Assembly: GCA_029260795.1 (NCBI GenBank) | Contig: JAJDCO010000010.1 | Coordinates: forward strand, 22,164 to 86,163 | Length of the DNA stretch: 64,000 nucleotides | Origin: Planctomycetota bacterium | GTDB taxonomy: Bacteria; Planctomycetota; OFTM77 | Direction of reading: 5' to 3' | Made by a program: the position numbers and the translations under genes | Part shown: piece by piece, positions 30,603 through 63,062 of the stretch | How the letters are laid out: the number at the start of each line of letters is the position of its first letter | Numbering within the stretch: position 1 is the stretch's first letter | Notes under the pieces: model-generated | Told to the model about the DNA's origin: nothing | The model's database searches: none | What the model saw: only the letters and a program-made list of their open reading frames with translations

Positions 30603-31427
30603 ATGGGACTTCGAATCAACACCAATATCCAGTCTCTGACTGCGCAGCGCAACCTGATGCGCACGTCGGAGCGATTGGGTGGCAACTTCCGCAAGCTGTC
30701 GACCGGCTTGCGGATCTCGAACGCCGGTGATGACGCGGCTGGTTTAGCCATCGCCGAGCGCTTGCGTTCGCGCGCCCGCTCCCTGGACCAGGCGGCTCGA
30801 AATGCCAACGACGGCATCTCGCTCGTCTCGACGGGCGAGGGAGGGCTCAACGAGATCGGCAGCATCCTGATCCGGCTGCGTGAGCTCTCCATCCAGGCCA
30901 ACACCGGCACGACAACAGGCAACGACCAGGACACGCTGGACAACGAGTTCCAGTCCTTGGTCGAGGAGATCGACCGCATCTCCCAGGCGACCGACTTCAA
31001 CGGCGTCGACGTGTTGACCTCCTCCGCAACCCTGACGCTCCAAATCGGCAACGAGATCACCACGGGGGTCGACACTATCGACTTCACCATGGAGTCGATG
31101 CGCACCGCGGACCTCGGTCTCTCTTCGCTCGACATCAGCAGCACCGGCGATCCGGCTGCGGCCATCACTGCCATCGACGCGGCCCAGAACATCGTCAACA
31201 ACTATCGAGCGTCGATGGGTGCGATTCAGAATCGCTTGGGCGCGACGGTGGCTCACCTCAACGTGATGGCCGAGAACCTGCGGACGGGCGAGTCCCGTAT
31301 CCGCGACCTCGACATCGCCAGTGAGACGGCGGATCTGACCCGGAACTCGATCATCCAACAGGCGGGTGTCGCGATCCTGGCTCAGGCCAACGCTCAGCCC
31401 AATCTGGCCCTCCAGCTCCTCGGATAA
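30603..31427 (+). CDS. fliC: flagellin 1
   Basis: A 274-aa filament protein with only the conserved D0/D1 parts. N-terminus: MGLRINTNIQSLTAQRNL…KLSTGLRISNAGDDAAGLAIAERL. C-terminus: IRDLDIASETADLTRNSIIQQAGVAILAQANAQPNLALQLL. The short middle means no large D2/D3 surface domain. It is closely similar to flagellin 2 across both ends and may share a duplication origin. It is followed by a hairpin and a glycosyltransferase. RBS GGAGG lies 6 bases before the ATG. No sigma-28 promoter is seen, unlike flagellin 2. Confidence 0.96.
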   Translation: MGLRINTNIQSLTAQRNLMRTSERLGGNFRKLSTGLRISNAGDDAAGLAIAERLRSRARSLDQAARNANDGISLVSTGEGGLNEIGSILIRLRELSIQANTGTTTGNDQDTLDNEFQSLVEEIDRISQATDFNGVDVLTSSATLTLQIGNEITTGVDTIDFTMESMRTADLGLSSLDISSTGDPAAAITAIDAAQNIVNNYRASMGAIQNRLGATVAHLNVMAENLRTGESRIRDLDIASETADLTRNSIIQQAGVAILAQANAQPNLALQLLG

Positions 31428-33165: not shown

Positions 33166-33987
33166 ATGGGACTTCGAATCAACACGAATGTCCAATCGAT
33201 CCAGGCGCAGCGGAACCTCAGTAAGGCTGGAGAACGGCTGCAGAGTAACTTCCGTAAGCTGTCTACCGGTCTTCGTATCGCCAACGCAAAGGACGATGCG
33301 GCCGGGCTCGCGATCGCCGAGCGCTTGAACACGCGGACGCGCTCGCTGGATCAGGCTTCGCGGAACGCCAATGACGGCATCTCGCTGCTGCAGACCGGGG
33401 AAGGCGGCCTGAACGAGGTCGGCAACCTGCTGACGCGTCTGCGGGAGCTGGCCGTGCAGTCCAGCAATGGTACGACGTCGGGCGACGACAAGACGACGCT
33501 GAACAACGAGTTTCAGGACGTGGTCTCGGAAATCGACCGAATCTCGCAGGCCACTTCTTTCAACGAGATCGACGTGCTCAGCAGCTCGTCGACGGTCACG
33601 TTGCAGGTGGGTGCCGACACGACCAGCGGTGTCGACACCATCGACGTCGCGCTCCAGTCGACGCGCGCCGCCGACCTCGGCGTCAGCAGCCTCGACATCA
33701 GCGGCTCGGGTGACGCGAGCTCGGCCATCACGGCCATCGACTCCGCTCTCGACACGGTCAACAACTACCGAGCGGATCTCGGCTCCCTCCAGAACCGACT
33801 CGGCTCCACCGTCTCGCACTTGAGCGGCTTGACCGAGAACCTCAGCGCTGCCGAATCCCGAATCCGCGACCTCGACGTGGCGCGCGAGATGGCCGACCTG
33901 ACGCGGAACAGCATCATCCAGCAAGCCGGTGTGTCGATCCTCGCCCAGGCCAACGCTCAGCCGAACTTGGCCTTGAGTCTCCTCTAA
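33166..33987 (+). CDS. fliC: flagellin 2
   Basis: A 273-aa flagellin with the same compact D0/D1 design as flagellin 1: MGLRINTNVQSIQAQRNL…KLSTGLRIANAKDDAAGLAIAERL and IRDLDVAREMADLTRNSIIQQAGVSILAQANAQPNLALSLL. The middle is Ser/Thr/Asp-rich, offering many sites for O-glycosylation by the enzyme encoded just upstream. It has a clear sigma-28 promoter and a GGGAGG RBS, so it is probably the main late filament protein. A strong hairpin follows it. Confidence 0.96.
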   Translation: MGLRINTNVQSIQAQRNLSKAGERLQSNFRKLSTGLRIANAKDDAAGLAIAERLNTRTRSLDQASRNANDGISLLQTGEGGLNEVGNLLTRLRELAVQSSNGTTSGDDKTTLNNEFQDVVSEIDRISQATSFNEIDVLSSSSTVTLQVGADTTSGVDTIDVALQSTRAADLGVSSLDISGSGDASSAITAIDSALDTVNNYRADLGSLQNRLGSTVSHLSGLTENLSAAESRIRDLDVAREMADLTRNSIIQQAGVSILAQANAQPNLALSLL

Positions 33988-48745: not shown

Positions 48746-49222
48746 ATGAGACGCTTCCGATTTCGCTTGGAACGCATCCTCGAGCTTCGGCGCGCTCAGC
48801 TTCGAGCACGTGAGCACGAGGTGGCCGGCGCACAGCGTCTCGTTCGCGAGGCCGAGGACCGGGTCGCGGCGCACCTCGCAGAGCGTCGGACGGTCGGTCT
48901 CCGTTCTCGTCGCGCGTTGCACGATGGTGTGGCGGCCGAGCTGGGATGGATCGAGCCCTTGTCGGTCGCCTGGGAGCAGGCCTGTGAGAATGCGCGCGAG
49001 AAAGTGAAGGAAGCCGAGCGAGAGCGGGATCGGCGGATCGCGCTGCTTCAGGAGGTTCGGTCGGCCGTGGAGGCTCTCGAGCGGCTCCGCAGCCAGCAGG
49101 AGCGCCAGCATCGCCGCGACCGCCGCCGCCAGGAGGAAAAGGCTATGGATGAGCGACATCTGTGGTCGATGGTGGATGAGCAGCCGGAGGGGGACTCCGC
49201 CGAGGGCAGGGAAGAGAAGTGA
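48746..49222 (+). CDS. fliJ: flagellar export chaperone FliJ-like
   Basis: 158 aa, strongly basic and fully helical. FRFRLERILELRRAQLRAREHEVAGAQRLV is the typical FliJ N-terminus (F.L..vL.lr...e). It forms a coiled-coil stalk within the FliI ring, like the F1 gamma subunit. Directly after fliI; family identity is always low, so the call rests on pattern and place. Confidence 0.85.
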   Translation: MRRFRFRLERILELRRAQLRAREHEVAGAQRLVREAEDRVAAHLAERRTVGLRSRRALHDGVAAELGWIEPLSVAWEQACENAREKVKEAERERDRRIALLQEVRSAVEALERLRSQQERQHRRDRRRQEEKAMDERHLWSMVDEQPEGDSAEGREEK

Positions 49223-49232
49223 TTTAGGGGCC

Positions 49233-50090
49233 ATGAAGAGTCTCATCATCAAGGCCATGCTGTGGATCGTCGGCGGCTCCGTCGTGTTCGTCGGATCGCT
49301 CTTCGGGTTCCTGGCCATTCAAGGGCGAACGAGCGCCAAGGAGCTTTCACAGCTTCCGATCCTGTCGATGTTCATCGCGGCTCCTCCGGAGTCGAACGAG
49401 CCGGCTCCGGCCGAGGGCGAGTTCGAAGGAGCCGAGACAGCAGGCGGTGGGACCGTGGGTCCGACGGGCACTGCTTCGCCGACTTCCGAGTCCGGGAAGG
49501 TGGCCGCGGGCACTTCGAAGACGACGACGGGCCCGGGAGCCGTCACAGCTTCGCTGCCACCGAGACCGAAGCCGAATCAAATGCTCCGAGGGGCGCGGAC
49601 CGATAGCACGCCGTTCACGGGGACCGAGCTGGAGCGAATGGCGAGCGAGCTGCGTCAAGCGTTGCAAGCGACGGTCCAGCGCGAACGGGCACTCGACGAG
49701 CGCGAGCGCACGCTCGAGCGCATCGGCAAGGATCTCGAGGAGCGTCGTTCCCAGCTCGACCGGATGCTGCTCCAGCTCGAGAACGAGGCGGCCAACACTC
49801 GCGACGAGCGCGACCGCTTTCAGGGTGAGATCGTCCTGCTCGAGTCGGCCGAGAAGCAGAATCTGCGCAAGCTGGCGGACAAGTATCAGGTGATGAAAGC
49901 GGAGGAAGCCGCGGTCGTGCTGTCGGAGCTGGAGTTCGACGACATCGTCAAGATCATCTCGCAGATGTCGAACGATCGTCAGGTCGGAAAGATCCTGGGC
50001 TCGATGAACCCGCAGCTCGCCGCTTCGGTGACCGAGAAGCTCATGAAGCTGATCGACAAGAGCCAGACCGATGGTCAGGGGAAGAAGTGA
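49233..50090 (+). CDS. MotE-like / MgtE-N-type flagellar membrane protein
   Basis: The track start overlaps fliJ; ATG 49233 (MKSLIIKAML) gives 285 aa. One TM helix (about 7-31, AMLWIVGGSVVFVGSLFGFLA), a Gly/Ser/Thr/Pro-rich periplasmic linker (about 45-125), a long coiled coil (about 130-215, RERALDERERTLERIGKDLEERRSQLDRML), then a C-terminal domain (LADKYQVMKAEEAAVVLSELEFDDIVKIISQM…GKILGSMNPQLAASVTEKLMKL) of the MgtE-N/FliG-middle type found in MotE. MotE is a periplasmic chaperone of MotC in rhizobia; similar genes sit between fliJ and motA in many phyla. The exact role here is open. Confidence 0.75.
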   Translation: MKSLIIKAMLWIVGGSVVFVGSLFGFLAIQGRTSAKELSQLPILSMFIAAPPESNEPAPAEGEFEGAETAGGGTVGPTGTASPTSESGKVAAGTSKTTTGPGAVTASLPPRPKPNQMLRGARTDSTPFTGTELERMASELRQALQATVQRERALDERERTLERIGKDLEERRSQLDRMLLQLENEAANTRDERDRFQGEIVLLESAEKQNLRKLADKYQVMKAEEAAVVLSELEFDDIVKIISQMSNDRQVGKILGSMNPQLAASVTEKLMKLIDKSQTDGQGKK

Positions 50091-50119: not shown

Positions 50120-50890
50120 ATGGATCTCGGAACTCTAGCCGGACTGGTCGGCGGCATCTTGCTGGTGCTGGTGTCCATCCTGATGGGAAGCAACATCGGG
50201 GCGTTCCTGCACGTCCCGTCAATGATGATCACCGTCGGAGGAGCCACGGCCGCGACGCTCATCAACTTCCCGATCCCGAAGTTCATCGGCGTGATCAAGG
50301 TCGTGCGGAAGACCCTGTTCGACGACACGCCGACCGCGTCCGAAGAGATCCAGCGCATCGTCCAGCTGGCCACCATTGCTCGCCGCGAAGGCATCGTCGC
50401 GCTCGAGAACGAGTTCGAGAAGATCGACGACGACTTCTTGAAGAAGGGCCTGCAGCTCATCGTCGACGGCTTTCCGGCCGAGACCGTGCGCAGCATTCTC
50501 GAGATCGACGTGATGTCGATTCAGGAGCGCCACTCCCAGGGGAAGAAGATCCTCGACAACATGGCGAACTATGCGCCCGCCTTCGGAATGATCGGGACGC
50601 TCATCGGCTTGGTGACCATGCTCCAGAATCTCTCCGATCCGAGCCAGATCGGTGGCGGTATGGCGACGGCCCTCATCACGACCTTCTATGGCGCGATCAT
50701 GGCCAACCTGATCTTCACTCCGCTGGCGGGCAAGCTCGAAGCTCGTTCGAAGGAAGAGATCCTGGTCAAGCAGATCCTGGTCGAAGGCATCCTCTCGATT
50801 CAGGCGGGCGAGGTGCCGTACCTGGTCGCCGACAAGCTGTCCTCTTTCATCGATCCGCGCGAGCGAGCCGCGGTTTCGAGCGATCGTTGA
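50120..50890 (+). CDS. motA: flagellar stator protein MotA
   Basis: 256 aa, four TM helices. Start DLGTLAGLVGGILLVLVSILMG. The cytoplasmic loop has REGIVALENEFEKIDDDFLKKGLQLIVDGF, typical of MotA/PomA, and the second helix pair starts NYAPAFGMIGTLIGLVTMLQNLSDPSQIGGGMATALITTFYGAIMANL. Forms the MotA5B2 ion channel. Followed by two motB-like genes. Confidence 0.95.
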   Translation: MDLGTLAGLVGGILLVLVSILMGSNIGAFLHVPSMMITVGGATAATLINFPIPKFIGVIKVVRKTLFDDTPTASEEIQRIVQLATIARREGIVALENEFEKIDDDFLKKGLQLIVDGFPAETVRSILEIDVMSIQERHSQGKKILDNMANYAPAFGMIGTLIGLVTMLQNLSDPSQIGGGMATALITTFYGAIMANLIFTPLAGKLEARSKEEILVKQILVEGILSIQAGEVPYLVADKLSSFIDPRERAAVSSDR

Positions 50891-50902: not shown

Positions 50903-51625
50903 ATGCCCGTCAAGCCGGTCTCGGAGGAGCCCCGGGGGGCTCCCGATTGGGTCGTCACCTTCGGTGACATGATCTCGCTGCTCGTGACCTTCTTCGTCCT
51001 GATGCTGACGTTCTCCACCTTGGACGACAACGAGCTGAGGCCGGCCTTCGGGTCGCTGAACACCAACTTCGGCAACCTGACCCAGAAGCAGATTCGGCAC
51101 AATGTGCTCAGAACGTACGAGCAGCAACCCTGGAAGCGTGACATCAGCGGTGCTGATCGTCCGCCCAAGTACGACGTCGAGGAGCTTCACAGGCTCATCG
51201 AGGCCAAGAGCCGCAAGAGCGATGACGAGATCCCGCTCGAGCTCGAGCGCACTCAGCAGGGCCTCAGCATCCGCATCGACGCCGACGTCCTTTTCGAGCG
51301 TAGCTCAGCCGAGATCCGCGAGAAGAGCCGAGGACGGCTCCTCGATCTGGCAGAGATGCTCAAAGAGTCGGGTCGACCGTTCCTGGTCGAGGGGCACGCC
51401 GATGGACGCGAGTCGTGGGCAGGAGATGATCCGGCCACGCTCGCGGGACGTCGGGCCTTGGCCGTCGCCCAGCTCATGATGAGTCGTGCGCAGATCCCCC
51501 CTCGGCGGGTCGGGATCGAGTCCTTCGGGGATCAACGCCCTCGCGAGTCCAACGACACGATCGAGGGCCGACGCGTCAATCGGCGGGTCGAGATCCTCGT
51601 GCTCGGTGAGCGGGAGGCGAGGTAG
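50903..51625 (+). CDS. motB: flagellar stator protein MotB
   Basis: 240 aa, 12 bases after motA. A short cytosolic N-terminus (APDWVVTFGDMISLL) leads into one TM helix (about 20-40) with the ion-binding Asp in FGDMISLLVTFFVLMLTFST. The plug region follows. The C-terminal OmpA-like peptidoglycan-binding domain is intact: LFERSSAEIREKSRGRLLDLAEML, FLVEGHADGRES, RRALAVAQLMM, GIESFGDQRPRESND…GRRVNRRVEILVL. Confidence 0.92.
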   Translation: MPVKPVSEEPRGAPDWVVTFGDMISLLVTFFVLMLTFSTLDDNELRPAFGSLNTNFGNLTQKQIRHNVLRTYEQQPWKRDISGADRPPKYDVEELHRLIEAKSRKSDDEIPLELERTQQGLSIRIDADVLFERSSAEIREKSRGRLLDLAEMLKESGRPFLVEGHADGRESWAGDDPATLAGRRALAVAQLMMSRAQIPPRRVGIESFGDQRPRESNDTIEGRRVNRRVEILVLGEREAR

Positions 51626-51628
51626 GTC

Positions 51629-52378
51629 ATGCCCGTCCCATCCAAGCCGGCCGGAAAGATCCTCGTTCCCCAGTACATGGTGTCGTTCGGTGACATGATG
51701 ACGAACGTCCTGACCTTCTTCATCCTCCTGTGCAGCTTCTCCAAGCAGCAGGAGGCCGGGCTCATGAGCGATGGGGTCGGCTCCTTCAAGAACGAGGTCG
51801 GGCGAGCGGGCATTCCGAGCCTGACGCGAGCCTACGACAACCTCTTCGAGCTCTTCGAAGAGCAGATGCCCTACGAGATCCCCAAGCGCGCCCACCTCAA
51901 CGAGGACTCCTGGGAGGAGATCGAGGGGCGGCTGCGGTCGTCGGACATCGAGTCGCTCAGCAACGTCGACACGGACAGCTTCGAGTCCCGGGCCGAGCTC
52001 AGCCTCAACGTCCCGGGCGTCTTTCCTTCGGGGGCGAGCAGCTTGACCCAGGAGCAGCGCAGCCAGCTCGACGAGCTGCTCCCCGAGATCGAGTCGAGTG
52101 TGCTCGTGCCGGGCCGCGAGACCTACGTGTGGATCATCGAAGCCCAAACCGATTCGGAAGAGGCTGCCGATCCGAGCGACGCCCTGGCGCTCTCCTGGGA
52201 GCGTGCTCTGGCCGGCTATCGCTACCTGACCGAGCGGTCTCGATTGCCGAAGGGGCGATTCGTGGCACGCGGCGTGGCCTCCAGCTTCGAGAGCCCCGAG
52301 GAAGCCGTGCCGGCACCCCGAGCCGTCGGCCGACGGTTTCTGCGCGGCCTCAAGATTCGGCTGGAGAACAAGCCCTGA
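51629..52378 (+). CDS. second MotB-like stator protein with degenerate OmpA domain
   Basis: 249 aa, starting 3 bases after motB. The N-terminus LVPQYMVSFGDMMTNVLTFFILLCSF keeps the MotB TM helix with its Asp in the same GDM context, so it could bind MotA and ions. The C-terminal half has an OmpA-like outline (FPSGASSLTQEQRSQLDELLPEIE, VWIIEAQTD, ALALSWERALAGYRYLTE, GRRFLRGLKIRL), but the usual GH(T/A)D and NRRVEI-type residues that bind peptidoglycan are replaced. It could form mixed stators with MotB or act as an altered plug. Tandem co-directional motB paralogues behind one motA are unusual. Confidence 0.8.
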   Translation: MPVPSKPAGKILVPQYMVSFGDMMTNVLTFFILLCSFSKQQEAGLMSDGVGSFKNEVGRAGIPSLTRAYDNLFELFEEQMPYEIPKRAHLNEDSWEEIEGRLRSSDIESLSNVDTDSFESRAELSLNVPGVFPSGASSLTQEQRSQLDELLPEIESSVLVPGRETYVWIIEAQTDSEEAADPSDALALSWERALAGYRYLTERSRLPKGRFVARGVASSFESPEEAVPAPRAVGRRFLRGLKIRLENKP

Positions 52379-52537
52379 GTGCCCACGCTCCAAATTCGAC
52401 CGAGCCCGTTGATCCTGCCCATTCGAGACGGGTTTTCATGACCTTAGCCACGTCTGCCGAAAGAGAAGATCGGGAGGATGAAGTCGGGCTCGCTTCGAGC
52501 GCGGCTCATCGAACCTTCACCGAGGGACGAGAGAGCG

Positions 52538-53038
52538 ATGGCTGAGGAACCCAAGAATCCGACCGACGACTCCACTCAGGGGGAAGCGCCCCAGAAGAAG
52601 GGCAAGAAGGGGCTGCTGTTCGGGTTCTTGGCCCCGCTCTTGGCGGTGGCGGGTGCCTACCTGACGACCGTGCTCATTCCGCCCCTCGACCAGCCACGCC
52701 AGGTGGTCAAGAAGAAGATGCAGAAGGGATACGTCGCGCTCGCCGAAAGCCTCAACGGCAATCTGGTCGGCGACAAGTTCCGGCACATGTACTCGCTCAA
52801 CATCGCCTTCGAGTTCGAAGCCGTCGACAGGGGCGCGACCGAGGGGGCCTTCGAGGACGACCAGCAGCTGAGTCGGCTCAAGAGTCGTCTCAACTCGGTC
52901 ATCGCCCGTCAGACCCGCGAGGATCTCTACACCGGCGAGTTTCGCCAGGCACTACTCGAAGCCGCCAATGACATCCTGTTCACCGAGCAGGAGGGAGAGT
53001 TCACCGACATCCTGCTGACGAACATCGTCATTCAATGA
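52538..53038 (+). CDS. fliL: flagellar basal body-associated protein FliL
   Basis: The track ORF starts at 52478; ATG 52538 (MAEEPKNPTDD) is preceded by a purine-rich GAGGGACGAGAG and gives 166 aa. A basic/acidic N-terminus, one TM helix (about 29-50, GLLFGFLAPLLAVAGAYLTTVL) and a periplasmic domain ending LYTGEFRQALLEAANDILFTEQEGEFTDILLTNIVIQ, the common FliL C-terminus. FliL rings surround and stabilise stators. Located 159 bases after the second motB gene, before fliM. Confidence 0.85.
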   Translation: MAEEPKNPTDDSTQGEAPQKKGKKGLLFGFLAPLLAVAGAYLTTVLIPPLDQPRQVVKKKMQKGYVALAESLNGNLVGDKFRHMYSLNIAFEFEAVDRGATEGAFEDDQQLSRLKSRLNSVIARQTREDLYTGEFRQALLEAANDILFTEQEGEFTDILLTNIVIQ

Positions 53039-53086: not shown

Positions 53087-54064
53087 GTGCTTGAACCCAA
53101 GCTGAGCCGCGATGAGATCGAAGCCCTCTTCGACGACGGAGACTTCGTTCCCGATGCTCCGGTCGAGGAGGCGACCCAAAAGGACGAGAGCTTCAACTTC
53201 GCGGCGCCGAATCGTCTCACCTGGAATCAGATGGAGATGCTGCATGCGACGTTCCACGCAGTCGCGCAGCGCGTCGCCACGGCCGTCTCGCGCCCTCTGG
53301 TCATGGTGGTCGGCGCTCAGCTTTGGCGTCTCGAGCAGATGCGCTACGACTCCTTCGTGTCTTCCATTCCGCTGCCCTCCGCACTGGTCACCGTCAACTA
53401 CGAGCCGCTGGCGCGTCCTTGGCTGATCGCCATCAGCCCCAAGCTCGCCGGCGCGGCCGTCGATCGGATTCTCGGCGGCTCGGGCCGCCCGCCGGAGGAG
53501 CCGCGTGATCTCACGCCCCTCGAGTGGAGCGTCGCCGAGCCCTTCGTCCAAGGAACCATCGAAGGGGTCAGCGCAGGATTCAAGGAGCTCATCGAGCTCC
53601 GCGGACATCAGCTGGCGACCTTCTCCGACTCCAAGCTCGTGCGCGTCGCGTCCGACCACGAGGTCGTGCTCTCGGCGGAGATCCGCATGGGCGGCGAGCT
53701 TCCCGAGGAGTCGATCTGGATCTGCATGCTTCCCGATGAGCTGGATCCGCTCCTCGAGAAGAACGTCGAGTCCGACGCCACGGTCCGCGGCAACATCCAC
53801 CGGCCGGTCATCGAGGCGCACCTGCGTCAGATTCCGACCGATTTCCGAGTCGTATTCGAGAGCATCGAGCTGCCGCTCCGTCAGCTCATTCGCTGGCGTC
53901 CGGGCGACGTCATTCCCCTCGCTCACGGGCTCGATCAGCCCTTGTGGGGAGAGGTCGAAGGACGTCGGAAGTTCCAAGGTCGATTGGGGGCCTCTCGAGG
54001 AGAGCTCGCCTTTCGTGTTCAGAGACGACTCGAGTCGGGGCTGCACGATGACTCGAGTGAGTGA
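53087..54064 (+). CDS. fliM: flagellar motor switch protein FliM
   Basis: 325 aa, GTG start. The N-terminal CheY-binding motif is visible as LSRDEIEALFDDGD, then FAAPNRLTWNQMEMLHATFHAVAQRVATAVSRPL, VNYEPLARPWLIAISPKLAGAAVDRILGGSGRPPEEPRDLTPLEWSVAEPFVQGTIEGV (middle CheC-like domain) and the SPOA C-terminal part (RVVFESIELPLRQLIRWRPGDVIPLAH). The kept CheY motif implies chemotactic switching although no che genes are in the window. Confidence 0.95.
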   Translation: MLEPKLSRDEIEALFDDGDFVPDAPVEEATQKDESFNFAAPNRLTWNQMEMLHATFHAVAQRVATAVSRPLVMVVGAQLWRLEQMRYDSFVSSIPLPSALVTVNYEPLARPWLIAISPKLAGAAVDRILGGSGRPPEEPRDLTPLEWSVAEPFVQGTIEGVSAGFKELIELRGHQLATFSDSKLVRVASDHEVVLSAEIRMGGELPEESIWICMLPDELDPLLEKNVESDATVRGNIHRPVIEAHLRQIPTDFRVVFESIELPLRQLIRWRPGDVIPLAHGLDQPLWGEVEGRRKFQGRLGASRGELAFRVQRRLESGLHDDSSE

Positions 54065-54120: not shown

Positions 54121-54531
54121 ATGGCTGAAGAACCGCGCGAAGAACAGCAGAACCCGGCCGACTCTCCGCCGAATCCCGGTGAGGCATCCAAGCCGGCGAG
54201 CTCGCCCGAGCCCGTGGCCGTGTCATCCGTCGCCGAAGCGGTCGGGCTTCCCGAAGCGGCCCTCGATGCCAATATCGATCTCCTCCTCGATGTCTCGCTG
54301 AACGTCTCGGTCGAGGTCGGCCGCACGCGCTTGCCCGTCGAAGACATCCTCCGACTCTCGACGGGATCCATCGTGCGGCTCAACCGCGGCGCGAACGAGC
54401 CGGTCGAGCTTCGCGTTAACGGCAAGCTCGTTGCCTATGGCGAGGTCGTGGTCGTGAACGAGTGCTACGCGATCCGATTGGTTCAAATCGTCGATGCCGG
54501 TCAACGCGTGGCCGCCTCGGGAAAAGGCTGA
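54121..54531 (+). CDS. fliN: flagellar motor switch protein FliN
   Basis: 136 aa. Acidic Pro-rich N-terminus (to ~55), then the SPOA domain: LLLDVSLNVSVEVGRTRLPVEDILRLSTGSIVRLNRGANEPVELRVNGKLVAYGEVVVVNECYAIRLVQI, a standard FliN. Lower part of the C ring. Starts 56 bases after fliM. Confidence 0.96.
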   Translation: MAEEPREEQQNPADSPPNPGEASKPASSPEPVAVSSVAEAVGLPEAALDANIDLLLDVSLNVSVEVGRTRLPVEDILRLSTGSIVRLNRGANEPVELRVNGKLVAYGEVVVVNECYAIRLVQIVDAGQRVAASGKG

Positions 54532-56396: not shown

Positions 56397-59300
56397 ATGG
56401 AAGAACTTGCTCGAGCCATGCCCTATCGACTCACCCGTCGCGTTCGCGAGATCTTGCCCCCGGCCGACACGCTCTGGGTTACGTTGGCCTTGCTCTTGGC
56501 GCGGCGTCATGAGCTGAGGACCGCGTTGCTGCACGAAGAGATGGAGCGCACGCAAGAGGCCGAGCTGGTGACGCTCGATCCGGAAGCGCGGGCCAAGCGG
56601 CTCCGAGAGTTGGTGCGCGATCGCGCGCTCTCGTATCCCCGCGACGATGATCGCTTCGACCGTTGCCTGCGCTTGCAGGGCGCCGAGCGGACCGAGGCCT
56701 GTCTCCAGCACCTGCGCAGCTTCTCGGGTCCGGACGGCGAGCGCGTGCGCTCACCGCAGGTTCTCGAAGGCGTGCGTTGGCTCGGGGAGTCCGAGGCGCT
56801 CGGTGAGGTGCTCGAGGAGCTGCTGACGATGGCACTCGAGGCTCCCGAGTGCGACGACGAAGGCTTTGCTGCTCTCGAGCGCGCCGTGCTCGATCAGCTC
56901 CTGGGTGGCACCGAGGATCGTGCGGTTCGCGACGCGTGGCAGCGCTTTCACGGAGCAGCCGAAACCGATGTGCGAGTGGCCACCTCGGCAGCCGAGTCGA
57001 CTCGCGTCACGGTCACTCTCGAATACGATCGCCGCCTGAACTGGGCGATGGAGCGCAACGGCATCCCGATCGTCCATCAGGTGCGGCTGACCAATCCCAC
57101 CGAGCATCCGCTCGAAGAGCTCACTTTGGCGCTGCAAGCGGGCCCCGGCTTCGGGCCGCGCTTCGAAACGGGCGTGCCGGCGATCCCGGCTGGTGGCACC
57201 TTCACGCTGCGGCGACCGGATCTGGTGCTCGACGAGCCACGCTTGCGGACGGCCCGCGAGCGCGAGCGCGGACAGCTCCAGCTCGAGGTACGCTCGGCTT
57301 CACGGCTTCTGGTTCGAGAGTCGTGGCCGATCGAGCTCCTCGCCTACAACGAGTGGGATCGGGCCTCGCTGCCCGAGCTCTTGGCCGCGTTCGTGCTCCC
57401 GAACCATCCCGCCATCGCGACCGTGCTCGAGACGGTGCGGGACTGCTTGGAGTCGGCGACCGGCGATCCCACCCTGGCCGGCTACCACGATCGCTCGCGA
57501 CGCCGGGTCGAGCAGACCGTCGCTGCGGTGTACACGGCGCTCCAAGAGCTCGACATCACCTATGTCATGCCGCCAGCCAGCTACGAGAGCAGCGGGCAGA
57601 AGATCCGATTGCCCGACGAGATCCTCGAGCACCGCATGGGCACCTGCCTCGATCTGACGGTGCTGATCGCGGCTTGCCTCGAGCATGCCGGCCTGCACCC
57701 GGTGCTGGTGCTGGTCGAGGGGCACGCCTTTCCTGGCTGCTGGGCCCTCGAGGACTGGCTGCCGGTGCCGGCGACCGACGACCACCACAGCGTGCGCAAG
57801 CTGGTCGAGGCCGAGGAGATCTTCGTCTTCGACTCGTCCACCCTGACCCAGCGACCTCGCTCCGAGTTTACGGCGGCGGTGACGGAAGCGCGCCGCCGAC
57901 TCGCCGACAGCCGACAGTTCGAAGGCGTGGTCGACGTGCGGTCCGCCCGCATCGCTCAAGTGCTGCCCTTACCGTTTCACGTCGACCCGAGCCCGGTTCC
58001 CACGCCGCCACTCCCCGTCGCTGGCCCGGCCACCCTCGCCCGGCCCACTCGTCCCGAATCGACGTCGGTCTCGACCGAGAAGCCGCCCGCAACCGCTCCG
58101 GTCCCCGCGACCGCCGCCGAAGGGATCGCCGCCGAGCCTGCGGCGCCCGAGTCGTCGGCGGGCCGCATCGAGCGCTGGAAGGAGCGTCTCCTCGATCTCT
58201 CCTTACGGAACCGTCTGCTGAACTACTCGCCGTCTCGGAGCAAGAGCATCGTGCTGGCAGTTCCCGAGCTCGACCTGCTCGAGGATCAGCTCGCGGGCGA
58301 TGGAGCACTGCGCTTCGAGCCGCGCATCGAGGTCGGAGACGATCCTCGCGCTCACGAGCTGCAGGCGACCCGCGGTGCCGACGACCAGCTCGCCGCTCAG
58401 CGCCGCGCCCTGCTCGAGCGCCAACGGGTTCTCACCGAGCACGCGGCGACCGATCTCGACCGACGTCTGAACGAGATTGCCCGTCAGGCCCGCACTGAGG
58501 TCGAGGAGTCGGGTGCCTCGACGCTGTACCTCGCGATCGGGCTGCTGCGCTGGTACGAGTCGGACACCAGCGACAAGCCGCGCACGGCGCCGATCTTACT
58601 GTACCCGGTCGAGCTTCGTCGACAGAGCGCGCGGGAGAGCTACCGCGTGCAGGCGCGCGACGATGAGCCGCGACTCAACGATACTCTGTTCGAGAAGCTC
58701 CGCATCACCTTCGGGCTCGAGTTCGACGAGCTGCAGACGCTGCCTCTCGACGAAGCGGGAGTCGACGTCGCTCAGGTGCTTCGAACGCTTCGGCGAGCGG
58801 TTGCCCGTCTCCCGAAGTTCGAGGTGCTGGATGAGGCGCATTTGAGTTTTTTCTCATTTACCAAGTACCTCATGTGGCGAGATCTGGATCGGCATCGGGA
58901 GGCGCTCCTGCGAAGCCCGCTCGTCGATCACCTCGTCGCCGGCGGTGGGACGCCCTGGCCCGAGCAGGAGCCGTTCCCTGAGCCACGCGCCCTCGACCGC
59001 AGCGATCCTCCTTGCCGAGTCCCGCTGGTCCTCGATGCCGACAGTAGCCAGCTCGCCGCGATTCAGGCCGGAGTCTCGGGACGCACCTTCGTCCTCCAGG
59101 GACCGCCGGGCACCGGGAAGTCCCAGACCATCGCCAACCTCATCGGCGCTTGCCTGGCAGCCGGGCAGCGAGTCCTGTTCGTGGCGGAGAAGCGAGCGGC
59201 GCTCGACGTCGTAGCGCGACGCCTGCGCCAGGTCGGGCTCGGCGACGATTGCCTCGAGCTTCACAGCAACAAGGCCAACAAGCGGGCCGTGGTCGAGGAG

Positions 59301-62300
59301 CTCGCCCGCGTGCTCGAACAGAAGCGCGTCGCGGGCAAGATCGACCTGGAGCCGACGCGACGCCGCGTGGAATCTGCCGCCGCTCGCCTCAATGGCTACG
59401 TCGATCATCTCCACGAGATCTCGCCCGTCGGACGCTCCTACTTCTCGGCCGCGGCTCGCCTCGGTGAGCTCGAAGATGCACCGCGCGTCGGGCTGGATCT
59501 GGAGGCGGTCGCCGCCACCACTCGAGAGACCTTCGAGCAGCACCTTGAAGCTCTCTCCGCGCTCGGAGACGCAGCCCGTGATCTGCCGCACTTGGTCGGG
59601 CATCCCTTCGCGGCCTGCCGGGTCACCGAGTGGAGCCGCTTACAGGCCCGCGAATGGGAGGCGGCACTCGCCCGCTCGATCGAAGCTGCCGAACGCGTCC
59701 AGTCCGCCCAGAGTGCCGCCGCCCGTCGCCTCGGGTTGGCACCCGAGCTTCCGTTGGCGGCGCTCGACTCGGTCGTCTGGATGCTGCGCCTCCTGGCGGC
59801 CGGAGTGCCGGAGGGAGCCGACTCGCTACTGTCCCGTTCGGATCGACGAACTGCAATCGCTCGGCTCGAAGGGCTGCTGGAGCCGGCGAAGCAGCGGGCC
59901 GAGCTGATGGCGAAGCTGTCCGAGCACTTCGAGCCGCGCATCGTCGAGGCCGATCTCAACGCCTGGCTGGCAGCGTTTCGCCGGCATGCGCGCTCGATGG
60001 CTCTCGTGCGCTGGTGGAGCTTGCGGAAGGCCCGCGCCGAGCTGGCTGCCTTCCGCATCCAGGCACACCGGTCGGCGGTCGATACCCTTCAGGATCTCGA
60101 GCGGGCCATCCAAGCCCAAGAGCTCGGCCGCGCGCTCGAGCGCGAGCAGGCCTTCCTGAGTGAGGCCCTGGGAGCGCATGCGCGAGGTGCCGAGACCGAT
60201 TTCGAGGCGGTCGGGCGGCTGGTCGCGTTCGTGCGGGACTGGGGCGAGGCGGCCAGCCAGCTCCGTGCGGCGATCGGAGAGCATCCGGTCGTGCGGCCGC
60301 CGGCGCTGCCGAGTGCGGAAGCCGAGGCCGCTCTCGCTCCGCTGCTCGAGGTGCTGCCCGGTTTTCGGAGCGAGCTGGCGGAGCTGGTGCGTCAGCTCGG
60401 CGTTGACCGGGCCGAGGCTTTCTCAGGCGGGGGGGGAGTCGAGACCGTGTCGGCGATCGTCGAGCGGGCGAAGTCCTGGCGGGCGTCGCTGCCGATGCTG
60501 CGAGATTGGGCGCGCTTCGTTGGCGCCGAAGAGGCCGTTCGTGATCGCGGGCTCACGGCGTTGGCGCGGGCTCTGAGACGCGACGAGCTGCGGGCGGGCG
60601 AGCTGGGATCCGCCTTCGAGCGCGCCTTCTGGGAGGCTTGGCTCGACCATCGGGCGCAGGAGATCGACGCGCTTCGCTCGTTCAACGGCCGCGACCACGA
60701 TCGAGTCGTCCGCCGTTTTCAGAAAGCTGACCAGGAGCTGATCGAGGCCGGCGGCGGTTCGATCGCGGCTGCCCTGGCCGAGCATCGGCCTGAGCTGATG
60801 GGTGAAGCGGTGGCGGGGTCGGAGGTCGGTTTGTTGCAGCGCGAAGCTCGCAAGAAGCGTCGGCATCTGTCGGTCCGGCGTCTCCTCGAGCAGATCCCGC
60901 ATCTGCTCCCACGCCTCAAGCCGTGCCTCCTCATGAGCCCGCTCTCGATCGCGCAGTATCTTCCCGCCTCACGGGAGCCGTTCGACGTCGTGATCTTCGA
61001 CGAGGCCTCCCAGATCCCCACTCATGACGCTGTCGGCGCGATCGCGCGCGGTCGTCAGGTGATCGTGGTCGGCGACAGCAAGCAGCTCCCTCCGACGTCC
61101 TTCTTTCACGTCGACCTTTCGGAGATCGAGGAGGATCCGACCGACGGGATGTGGGTGCAAGAGCTCGAGAGCATTCTCGACGAATGCATGGCGAGCGGGC
61201 TGCCCGCTTGCATGCTGGAGTGGCACTATCGGAGTCGGGACGAGCGGCTGATCACCTTCAGCAACTGGAAGTACTACGACAATCGACTCCACACTTTTCC
61301 GGCGCCCGGCATCACGGCCGCCGAGCTGGGAGTGTCGTGGCAGTGGGTCGAGGGCGTCTTCGATCGGGGCAAGAGTCGCACCAATCGAGCCGAGGCGGAG
61401 GCGGTGGCGGCTTGGGTGGTCGAGTGCCTGCGGGATTCGGATCGTGCGGGACGCTCGATCGGCGTCGTGACCTTCAACCAGGCGCAGCAGATGCTGATCG
61501 AGGACCTGCTCGATGGCGCGCGGCGGGAGCATCCCGAGATCGAGCCATACTTCGACGACCGTGCCGTCGAGCCGGTCTTCGTGAAGAACCTCGAGAATGT
61601 TCAGGGCGACGAGCGGGACGTGATCCTGTTCTCGGTCACCTACGGTCCCGACGTCGATGGCAAGGTCTCGATGAACTTCGGTCCCCTAAATCGAGACGGC
61701 GGTGAGCGGCGCCTCAACGTGGCCATCACGCGCGCCCGCGAGCAGCTGCGCGTCTTCTCGACGCTGCGTCCGGAGGACATCGATCTCAATCGCACACGCG
61801 CCGTCGGTGCCGAGCACCTCAAGGACTTCTTGCGGTTCGCGGACCAAGGGCCCTCGGCGCTCGCCGAGCGCCTGGTCGCCACGCCCGAGGCCGCCGGCCT
61901 CACCTCGCTCGAGCAGAGCATCGCCGAGCGCTTGCGCGAGCGCGGCCACGACATCGAGCTGGCCGTCGGCTGCGCCGGCTTCCGCATCGACCTGGCCGTG
62001 CGCGATCCTCAGGAACCCGATCAGCATTGCCTCGCGATCGTCTGTGATGGCGCGAGCTATCGCATGGCGCCCATGGCTCGCGACCGCGACCGCATTCGCG
62101 AGTCCGTGCTCGAGAATCTCGGTTGGTCCGTGCACCGCGTCTGGTCGCTCGATTGGTGGCACGATGCCGACAGCGAGTTGGAGCGCCTCGAGAAGGCGAT
62201 CAAGAAAGCGACTCAGCCGGGTCGTCGCCGACGGCTGCGGCGCGGCGCAAACCTCGAGCTGGCCGAGAGCACTCCGGTCGTGAGCGAGCCCGCCGTGGCT

Positions 62301-63062
62301 CTCGAATCGAAAGAGCCCGTCATCGCGGTTGAGCCCGACGCCGCCGAGGAGAAGGCGGAGATCGCCGAGCGAGCTCAAGAAATCGATACGAAGGGAGCCC
62401 CGGCTGAGGCATCGACTCTCGAAGAGGGCGTGACCGAGGAGGCGACTCCGGACACTCCGCTCGCCGAGGAGAGCGAGGAATCGGAGCCCGAGCTGCGACC
62501 CGATGGTTCGAGCGCCTGGGTGAAGGTTCCGATCGAGACGATCGGTGATTCGACGAGCTTCGAGGACGCCGCGTACGAGGACACGCTCATCGAGCTGATC
62601 AAGAAGATCGTCGAGGTCGAAGGGCCCGTGCACCGACATCGTGTCATGCGCTGCTTGATGAAGAGCCACGATGTCTCACGTGCCACGAGCAAGGTCAAGG
62701 AGCGGGTCCATGAGCTGGTCGAGCGAGCGGCCGCGCGGAAGGTCGTGACCGTGGCTGACGAGTTCGTATGGCACCGCGATCAAGATCGCGAGCACTTCCA
62801 GGCCTTTCGAAGCGGAGACGCTCGCGGCAAGACACGCTCTCCGGAGCTCGTAGCGCCCGAGGAGATCGCGGCCGCCCTGCGACGTGTCCTGAAGGGTGCG
62901 ATCGCGCTCCCGGAGGAGGACCTGTTTCGGGCCGCGGGGCAGCTCCTGGGCTATCGTCGCACGACCGACAAGCTCAAGGTCGCACTCGAATCGGGCCTGG
63001 CGCTGGTCATCGAGCGGAGAGGAGCCGTTCGAGACGGCGAGCGCATCCGATTGCCGTCGTGA
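56397..63062 (+). CDS. giant DUF4011 helicase-nuclease with transglutaminase-like domain
   Basis: 2221 aa. Visible order: a helical N-terminus (1-185); an Ig-like β region (about 205-310, VRLTNPTEHPLEELTLALQ); a transglutaminase-like domain (about 325-490) with Cys in HRMGTCLDL (C417) and His in VEGHAFPG (H443); DUF4011 start RIERWKERLLDLSLRNRLLNY (about 589); an SF1 helicase with Walker A GPPGTGKSQT (about 902), Walker B FDEASQIP (about 1533), GDSKQLPP, and motif VI LNVAITRAREQLRVFS (about 1773), interrupted by a long helical insert; a Vsr/MTES_1575-like PD-(D/E)XK domain (about 1837-1945, FRIDLAV…AIVCDG); an acidic linker; and a DUF3320-like C-terminus (about 2060-2221). It probably unwinds and cuts nucleic acid. 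This architecture is found in suspected anti-phage proteins. It stands alone without a methylase partner. Confidence 0.9.
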   Translation: MEELARAMPYRLTRRVREILPPADTLWVTLALLLARRHELRTALLHEEMERTQEAELVTLDPEARAKRLRELVRDRALSYPRDDDRFDRCLRLQGAERTEACLQHLRSFSGPDGERVRSPQVLEGVRWLGESEALGEVLEELLTMALEAPECDDEGFAALERAVLDQLLGGTEDRAVRDAWQRFHGAAETDVRVATSAAESTRVTVTLEYDRRLNWAMERNGIPIVHQVRLTNPTEHPLEELTLALQAGPGFGPRFETGVPAIPAGGTFTLRRPDLVLDEPRLRTARERERGQLQLEVRSASRLLVRESWPIELLAYNEWDRASLPELLAAFVLPNHPAIATVLETVRDCLESATGDPTLAGYHDRSRRRVEQTVAAVYTALQELDITYVMPPASYESSGQKIRLPDEILEHRMGTCLDLTVLIAACLEHAGLHPVLVLVEGHAFPGCWALEDWLPVPATDDHHSVRKLVEAEEIFVFDSSTLTQRPRSEFTAAVTEARRRLADSRQFEGVVDVRSARIAQVLPLPFHVDPSPVPTPPLPVAGPATLARPTRPESTSVSTEKPPATAPVPATAAEGIAAEPAAPESSAGRIERWKERLLDLSLRNRLLNYSPSRSKSIVLAVPELDLLEDQLAGDGALRFEPRIEVGDDPRAHELQATRGADDQLAAQRRALLERQRVLTEHAATDLDRRLNEIARQARTEVEESGASTLYLAIGLLRWYESDTSDKPRTAPILLYPVELRRQSARESYRVQARDDEPRLNDTLFEKLRITFGLEFDELQTLPLDEAGVDVAQVLRTLRRAVARLPKFEVLDEAHLSFFSFTKYLMWRDLDRHREALLRSPLVDHLVAGGGTPWPEQEPFPEPRALDRSDPPCRVPLVLDADSSQLAAIQAGVSGRTFVLQGPPGTGKSQTIANLIGACLAAGQRVLFVAEKRAALDVVARRLRQVGLGDDCLELHSNKANKRAVVEELARVLEQKRVAGKIDLEPTRRRVESAAARLNGYVDHLHEISPVGRSYFSAAARLGELEDAPRVGLDLEAVAATTRETFEQHLEALSALGDAARDLPHLVGHPFAACRVTEWSRLQAREWEAALARSIEAAERVQSAQSAAARRLGLAPELPLAALDSVVWMLRLLAAGVPEGADSLLSRSDRRTAIARLEGLLEPAKQRAELMAKLSEHFEPRIVEADLNAWLAAFRRHARSMALVRWWSLRKARAELAAFRIQAHRSAVDTLQDLERAIQAQELGRALEREQAFLSEALGAHARGAETDFEAVGRLVAFVRDWGEAASQLRAAIGEHPVVRPPALPSAEAEAALAPLLEVLPGFRSELAELVRQLGVDRAEAFSGGGGVETVSAIVERAKSWRASLPMLRDWARFVGAEEAVRDRGLTALARALRRDELRAGELGSAFERAFWEAWLDHRAQEIDALRSFNGRDHDRVVRRFQKADQELIEAGGGSIAAALAEHRPELMGEAVAGSEVGLLQREARKKRRHLSVRRLLEQIPHLLPRLKPCLLMSPLSIAQYLPASREPFDVVIFDEASQIPTHDAVGAIARGRQVIVVGDSKQLPPTSFFHVDLSEIEEDPTDGMWVQELESILDECMASGLPACMLEWHYRSRDERLITFSNWKYYDNRLHTFPAPGITAAELGVSWQWVEGVFDRGKSRTNRAEAEAVAAWVVECLRDSDRAGRSIGVVTFNQAQQMLIEDLLDGARREHPEIEPYFDDRAVEPVFVKNLENVQGDERDVILFSVTYGPDVDGKVSMNFGPLNRDGGERRLNVAITRAREQLRVFSTLRPEDIDLNRTRAVGAEHLKDFLRFADQGPSALAERLVATPEAAGLTSLEQSIAERLRERGHDIELAVGCAGFRIDLAVRDPQEPDQHCLAIVCDGASYRMAPMARDRDRIRESVLENLGWSVHRVWSLDWWHDADSELERLEKAIKKATQPGRRRRLRRGANLELAESTPVVSEPAVALESKEPVIAVEPDAAEEKAEIAERAQEIDTKGAPAEASTLEEGVTEEATPDTPLAEESEESEPELRPDGSSAWVKVPIETIGDSTSFEDAAYEDTLIELIKKIVEVEGPVHRHRVMRCLMKSHDVSRATSKVKERVHELVERAAARKVVTVADEFVWHRDQDREHFQAFRSGDARGKTRSPELVAPEEIAAALRRVLKGAIALPEEDLFRAAGQLLGYRRTTDKLKVALESGLALVIERRGAVRDGERIRLPS

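Follow-up and report, generated by a model that had tools for sequence, protein, structure and literature searches.

Why should a flagellar operon encode two different MotB proteins behind a single motA, and what would the second one contribute to the motor? This question is raised by a 64,000-nucleotide stretch of DNA, hereafter the window, from the 8.1 Mb genome (G000) of a Planctomycetota bacterium without a close relative among the genomes that we compared (contig JAJDCO010000010.1, positions 22,164 to 86,163 of the forward strand). The original prediction had recognized in it a second motB gene, motB2, behind motB1 and a lone motA, and had proposed that its product either pairs with MotB1 in a heterodimer with one anchored and one free arm, or regulates stator activation. 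The gene lies where it had been placed, and profile searches of the whole genome return a single MotA and just two MotB_plug proteins. As described below, many Planctomycetota, anammox bacteria included, have a motor with one MotA and two ancient, different and adjacently coded MotBs. In our judgement this arrangement is best explained, and probably correctly so, by a MotB1:MotB2 heterodimer set in a ring of MotA.

The two MotB proteins of the window

Both window MotBs carry the transmembrane aspartate that the original prediction had read in them, in each case at residue 22 (TFGDMIS in MotB1, SFGDMMT in MotB2). In Pfam searches MotB1 matches MotB_plug with 49.3 bits and OmpA with 55.3 bits; MotB2 matches MotB_plug above the cut-off (34.6 bits, cut-off 24) and OmpA below it (22.4 bits, cut-off 27.2). 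As in MotB, a single N-terminal transmembrane helix (residues 15-39) holds D22 of MotB2, and the gene is part of a flagellar operon and adjacent to the motA locus, its start lying 3 nucleotides (nt) past the motB1 stop. The AlphaFold2 (AF2) model of MotB2, built with 37 orthologues, has a mean predicted local distance difference test score (pLDDT) of 70.9; the transmembrane helix is modelled with confidence, as is most of the OmpA-like core, and the linker is weak. Its top match in the PDB is 3td5 (E 1.8e-06), the OmpA-like domain of Acinetobacter OmpA with a bound peptidoglycan peptide, and the OmpA-like fold thus seems to be kept. The membrane helices of MotB1 and MotB2 have a signature in common and differ at many positions, e.g. 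16, 17, 19, 24, 25, 28, 35 and 37.

Regarding wall binding, the peptidoglycan residues of Helicobacter pylori MotB are G161, D164, L179, R183 and R226 (PMC3080404). We mapped these five to MotB1 numbering as G164, D167, L180, R184 and R228. In doing so, R226 was presumed to be the second arginine of NRR, an assignment that follows the E. coli numbering. Window MotB1 displays GHAD (D167), RRA (R184) and NRRVEI. As had been claimed, GHADG and NRRVEI are found in MotB1 only; the counterparts in MotB2 are AQTD (D175) and WERA (R192), and the NRRV motif is absent. The accompanying claim that MotB1 alone keeps the peptidoglycan-binding residues is right for these motifs and too strong for the residues themselves, since MotB2 retains three of the five (D175, L188 and R192); alanine stands in place of the glycine, and the last arginine is probably gone, the alignment there being uncertain.

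Over 81 pairs the five residues (G, D, L, R, R) are kept in 72, 74, 79, 85 and 76% of MotB1 and in 88, 13, 81, 93 and 12% of MotB2. NRR occurs in 56/81 MotB1, 2/81 MotB2 and 13/18 MotBs of single-motB genomes (single MotBs), and the loop ahead of the NRR strand is shortened in about 60% of MotB2. MotB2 of most families retains the OmpA-like fold and the R192-type arginine but no longer has the NRR strand, and in many cases the GHxD aspartate is gone as well; the retained D175, together with L188 and R192, sets the window MotB2 apart from most others. Loss of the GHxD aspartate was rejected as a sign of lost wall binding, because Planctomycetota single MotBs are mostly without it as well (1 of 18 has an aspartate at or beside the site).

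Spread and age of the tandem

The original prediction had suggested looking for conserved tandem pairs in related genomes. Within Planctomycetota we searched for relatives, scanned genome contigs and surveyed 392 genomes, and found 106 tandems after duplicate removal. Three loci were left out: L142, in which the second MotB is not recognisable, L119, in which MotB1 appears split, and L144, in which both MotBs resemble the single type. The two MotBs of L144 (G066) each score best with the single-MotB profile, and perhaps represent an independent duplication.

The gene order motA-motB1-motB2 is found in 106/106 loci, often with fliL, fliM and fliN on the 3' side. The nearest motB2 start lies at a median of -1 nt from the motB1 stop, and within 20 nt of it in 64 of the 71 measured pairs. 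At least one MotB_plug (PF13677) protein is encoded by 240 of the 392 surveyed genomes, some having one and some two; two matches do not always amount to a tandem, since the two copies of family f24 lie far apart on the genome. One full-length MotA was found in each of 36 tandem genomes, the few extra matches being weak, partial and ExbB-like. Exactly two MotB_plug proteins are present in 35 of these 36, and those 35 genomes have no stator set besides the tandem.

The labels MotB1 and MotB2 were assigned from gene order only, so that phylogeny provides an independent check on them. An unrooted tree separates MotB1, MotB2 and the single MotBs into three clades (Shimodaira-Hasegawa-like approximate likelihood ratio test, SH-aLRT, 89, 99 and 92). 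The same clades were recovered when the Asp-less members described below were added and the aspartate column was omitted (SH-aLRT 87, 96 and 97), and in a further, careful tree (ultrafast bootstrap 95, 90 and 97 for MotB1, MotB2 and single MotBs). Sequence identities among MotB1 track those among MotB2, with a correlation of 0.92 between the two matrices. From the separate clades it follows that the pair is old and co-inherited.

In close pairs, the ratio of nonsynonymous to synonymous substitution rates (dN/dS) of MotB2 is 0.03-0.45, generally lower than that of MotB1, and as judged by these ratios purifying selection acts on MotB2, as it does on MotB1. The window protein might be suspected to be a redundant or decaying duplicate, with its OmpA match below the Pfam cut-off; however, the ancient single clade, the conserved synteny and the dN/dS values refute this view, to which we give next to no credence. 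The original prediction had named a MotB2 found only here and decaying as one outcome that would speak against it, and both parts are excluded by the 106 loci, the age of the clade and the constraint on the gene.

Aspartate loss and wall anchor in anammox genomes

All 106 MotB1 retain the transmembrane aspartate, which is replaced by alanine, serine or glycine in 27 of the 106 MotB2. These Asp-less MotB2 loci fall in families f42, f80 and f82, plus L006 (f38) and L141 (f79). HZS_alpha, a hydrazine synthase family, was found in every tested genome of f42, f80 and f82 except one and was taken as the anammox marker for them; the L006 genome also has HZS_alpha matches, along with several unusual proteins, and is not called anammox here. 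The genomes with Asp-less MotB2 that were checked have one full-length MotA and encode flagellins. In Asp-less pairs, the median ratio of nonsynonymous to synonymous differences (pN/pS) over the transmembrane segment is 0.07 for MotB2 and 0.06 for MotB1, and T25, L28, F30 and F31 are invariant in Asp-less MotB2. The loss of the aspartate is therefore not decay, as the segment is under the same constraint as in MotB1 and keeps these four residues.

Residue 25 of MotB1, three positions after the aspartate, is threonine in 26 of the 27 Asp-less pairs (L006, L102, L108, L115, L118-L141); among the other 79 it is serine in 66 and threonine in 8. We set aside the tracking of MotB2 aspartate loss by this residue, given that shared ancestry confounds it and independent events are few.

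The anchors of the two proteins were compared with an OmpA profile built from single MotBs. The better OmpA domain lies on MotB1 in 74 of the 79 Asp-bearing pairs (median 43.8 vs 25.0 bits) and on MotB2 in 20 of the 27 Asp-less pairs (median 54.4 vs 27.5 bits). Particularly, five f42 MotB1 gave Pfam OmpA scores of none, 26.2, 19.7, 26.6 and 23.3 bits, against the cut-off of 27.2, with MotB_plug at 52-58; f42 MotB2 scored 45-56 for OmpA and 20-33 for MotB_plug. In f82, OmpA has no match in MotB1 and 46.5 bits in MotB2. For most anammox genomes the OmpA score of MotB1 does not reach the Pfam cut-off. Families f42 and f82 thus combine an aspartate and a poor anchor on MotB1 with a good OmpA domain and no transmembrane aspartate on MotB2, whose GHxD aspartate is mostly replaced too. 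Exceptions are f80 and L127, in which MotB1 keeps the full NRR-type anchor. Within the anammox group, the fuller anchor is accordingly seen on MotB2 in most f42 genomes and on MotB1 in f80/L127 (L118-L135, L136-L140). Judging from these domain scores, the wall anchor appears to have moved from one subunit to the other among the anammox lineages.

These observations bear on the idea of one anchored and one free arm, which proved too simple. In most families MotB2 is without NRR but keeps the OmpA-like fold and the arginine, and in f42 and f82 the decayed arm is that of MotB1.

The main rival to a mixed dimer, for the anammox group, puts MotB2 outside the MotA ring as an accessory anchor or scaffold of the MotY or MotE/MotK kind; it would bind a MotB1 homodimer on the periplasmic side and, in anammox bacteria, provide the wall contact. 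The f42 MotB2, with its better OmpA domain and no aspartate, would suit such a role, and periplasmic stator helpers are known, among them MotK and MotE acting on Cereibacter MotB2 (PMC10954123). A simple anchor, however, would need neither the ion-binding aspartate found in 79/106 MotB2 nor the MotB signature T25, L28, F30 and F31, which even without the aspartate is as constrained as that of MotB1. We consider this accessory role unlikely.

A proposed mixed MotB1:MotB2 stator and its alternatives

According to the heterodimer model that we favour, the stator axle would consist of one MotB1 and one MotB2, different from each other, inside a MotA ring (MotA5 by analogy). In the lineage of the window both subunits carry the ion-binding aspartate, and the fuller wall anchor is on MotB1. 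Anammox bacteria have the aspartate on MotB1 only, and the majority (f42, f82) have the better wall anchor on MotB2. A working, anchored stator of f42 or f82 would then need both MotBs and would have one carboxylate per unit, not two.

Co-inheritance, a single MotA, the shared transmembrane signature and the anammox split have their simplest reading in a mixed heterodimer. In this regard, the constraint on its helix places MotB2 inside the ring, as we infer, and the separation of aspartate and anchor in anammox genomes argues that the dimer is mixed. In most of these genomes a stator that both works and is anchored seems out of reach for either MotB by itself, and the split suggests that MotB1 and MotB2 have to function together in a mixed dimer. 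The heterodimer originally proposed is consequently strengthened by the division of aspartate and anchor between the two proteins in most anammox genomes; for the regulation of stator activation by MotB2 we found no positive support. A more specific version, in which the stator of most anammox bacteria would be obligately heterodimeric, MotB1 and MotB2 sharing one MotA ring, with only one aspartate per unit, on MotB1, and the main wall anchor on MotB2, is put forward tentatively, our confidence in it falling a little short of even. If true, this would be a 5:2 rotary motor running on one carboxylate.

Alternatively, the stators could be interchangeable, with MotA assembling around a homodimer of either MotB1 or MotB2, the two differing in ion use or wall binding and being swapped by load or medium. 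The aspartate of 79/106 MotB2, most of them with an OmpA-like domain, would allow this, and the residue three positions after the aspartate, serine in most MotB1 and threonine in nearly all MotB2, could hint at different ion handling. Moreover, Aquifex MotA with either MotB (as chimeras) drove E. coli motors (PMC4525482). Asp-bearing lineages may have two alternative homodimers. However, an Asp-less MotB2, conserved in 27 loci, should not make a conducting homodimer, a homodimer of f42 MotB1 would be without most of its anchor, and motB1 and motB2 are never separate in 106 loci, a linkage that alternative stators would not need. As a general explanation we find interchangeable stators rather improbable.

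Several points weigh against the heterodimer. Its support comes from sequence comparison. The anchor swap concerns essentially one lineage (anammox f42/f82 plus L006), so that its replicates are not independent, and the loss of the aspartate amounts to just two to three changes (two on the MotB2 tree, three on the full tree). In f80 and L127, where MotB1 has both aspartate and anchor, MotB1 homodimers may form. Across families, Pfam OmpA matches in 31 pairs show no anticorrelation (both 13, MotB1 only 6, MotB2 only 9, neither 3, where about 3.5 with neither are expected), and at L016, L141 and L143 neither MotB has a good anchor. Furthermore, the transmembrane positions at which MotB1 and MotB2 differ are not significantly concentrated on a single face of the helix (p 0.29).

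Two candidate signals were rejected along these lines: one-face clustering as a mark of the dimer interface, on the p value just given, and complementary loss of plug and anchor in all lineages, since the single-MotB profile scores both plugs low and the 31 pairs lack the OmpA anticorrelation.

The locus and its neighbours

The operon comprises, in order, fliG-, fliH- and fliI-like genes (named by inspection alone), a coiled-coil gene, motA, motB1, motB2, fliL, fliM and fliN (Table 1). The coiled-coil protein directly 5' of motA (49149-50090) is matched weakly by MgtE_N and, at 22.1 bits, by FlbB, the flagellar collar protein of spirochaetes. Further upstream, two alike flagellin-like open reading frames (ORFs) of 274 and 273 amino acids (aa; 30603-31427 and 33166-33987) have a glycosyltransferase-like ORF in between. 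Just 3' of the flagellar genes, 56397-63062 encodes a helicase-like protein of 2221 aa, matched over most of its length by the PADLOC candidate defence model PDC-S37 (1409.8 bits) and in part by Hhe.

Table 1. Stator genes, their functional segments and downstream genes in the window.
Feature	Position	Strand	Description
motA	50120..50890	+	256 aa; sole MotA of the genome; Pfam MotA_ExbB 8.4e-33; NCBIfam top match PomA/MotP-type 4.5e-76
motB1	50903..51625	+	Canonical MotB: transmembrane Asp D22, plug, OmpA-like domain with GHAD, RRA, NRRVEI; Pfam MotB_plug 3.7e-13, OmpA 9e-15
MotB1 Asp22 codon, ion-binding residue	50966..50968	+	Asp in 106/106 MotB1
MotB1 peptidoglycan-binding stretch GHAD...RRA...NRRVE, residues 164-230	51392..51592	+	From the residue table; roles from PMC3080404
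motB2	51629..52378	+	Second MotB, 249 aa, ATG start, TGA stop; own clade in trees
MotB2 transmembrane helix, ~residues 15-38	51671..51742	+	AF2 helix 15-39; T25, L28, F30, F31 near-invariant among MotB2
MotB2 Asp22 codon	51692..51694	+	Asp in 79/106 MotB2; A/S/G in anammox families and two further lineages
MotB2 GxGSF juxtamembrane segment, plug region, residues 49-53	51773..51787	+	G49, G51, S52 near-invariant among MotB2 orthologues
MotB2 OmpA-like domain, ~residues 124-245	51998..52363	+	Retains D175 and R192 but not the NRR strand; Pfam OmpA match of 22.4 bits over profile positions 2-79 of 98; fold match 3td5
fliL	52478..53038	+	Next gene of the operon; Pfam FliL 4.3e-09
fliM	53087..54064	+	Pfam FliM 1.4e-22
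fliN	54121..54531	+	Pfam FliMN_C 8.2e-24

Comparison with known systems

A MotAB phylogeny that includes Planctomycetota took the gene directly 3' of motA as the B subunit (PMC12505986), and a second MotB is not mentioned in its main text as far as a term search shows. Nor did we find, in the open-licence literature, a precedent for an ancient division of labour between MotB1 and MotB2.

The tandem shares with the canonical MotA5MotB2 and PomA5PomB2 stators the MotA family, the MotB transmembrane aspartate, the plug, the OmpA-like domain and the A-then-B gene order. The canonical units, however, contain two copies of one MotB, whereas the tandem supplies two different MotBs per MotA. In the 5:2 rotary motor model the two B subunits are equal and their aspartates take turns. 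A natural stator with one ion-carrying and one wall-holding B would show whether one aspartate and one anchor per unit suffice. With the dual stators of Bacillus subtilis, MotAB and MotPS, the tandem has in common two kinds of B subunit for one motor; there each B has its own A subunit, while here a single MotA serves both.

The closest layout is that of Aquifex aeolicus, in which a motA/motB1/motB2 operon encodes MotBs with transmembrane regions 97% identical (PMC4525482; see also PMC4987623). The window genome has this Aquifex-type layout, with one motA, two adjacent motBs and no other stator set, and in both cases the periplasmic parts of the two MotBs are unlike. In contrast to the near-identical Aquifex helices, the Planctomycetota MotBs form separate ancient clades and differ in the transmembrane helix too, with the aspartate missing from one of them in some lineages.

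Finally, the AglR/AglQ/AglS gliding motor of Myxococcus also joins one MotA/TolQ-like subunit to two MotB/TolR-like ones. Unlike the planctomycetal tandem, AglRQS is not a flagellar stator, AglQ and AglS are both reported with the aspartate, and their periplasmic domains are TolR-like, not OmpA-like. Whether these MotB homologues form homo- or heterodimers has been stated to be unknown (PMC9389320), and a planctomycetal stator with divided labour would bear on that question.
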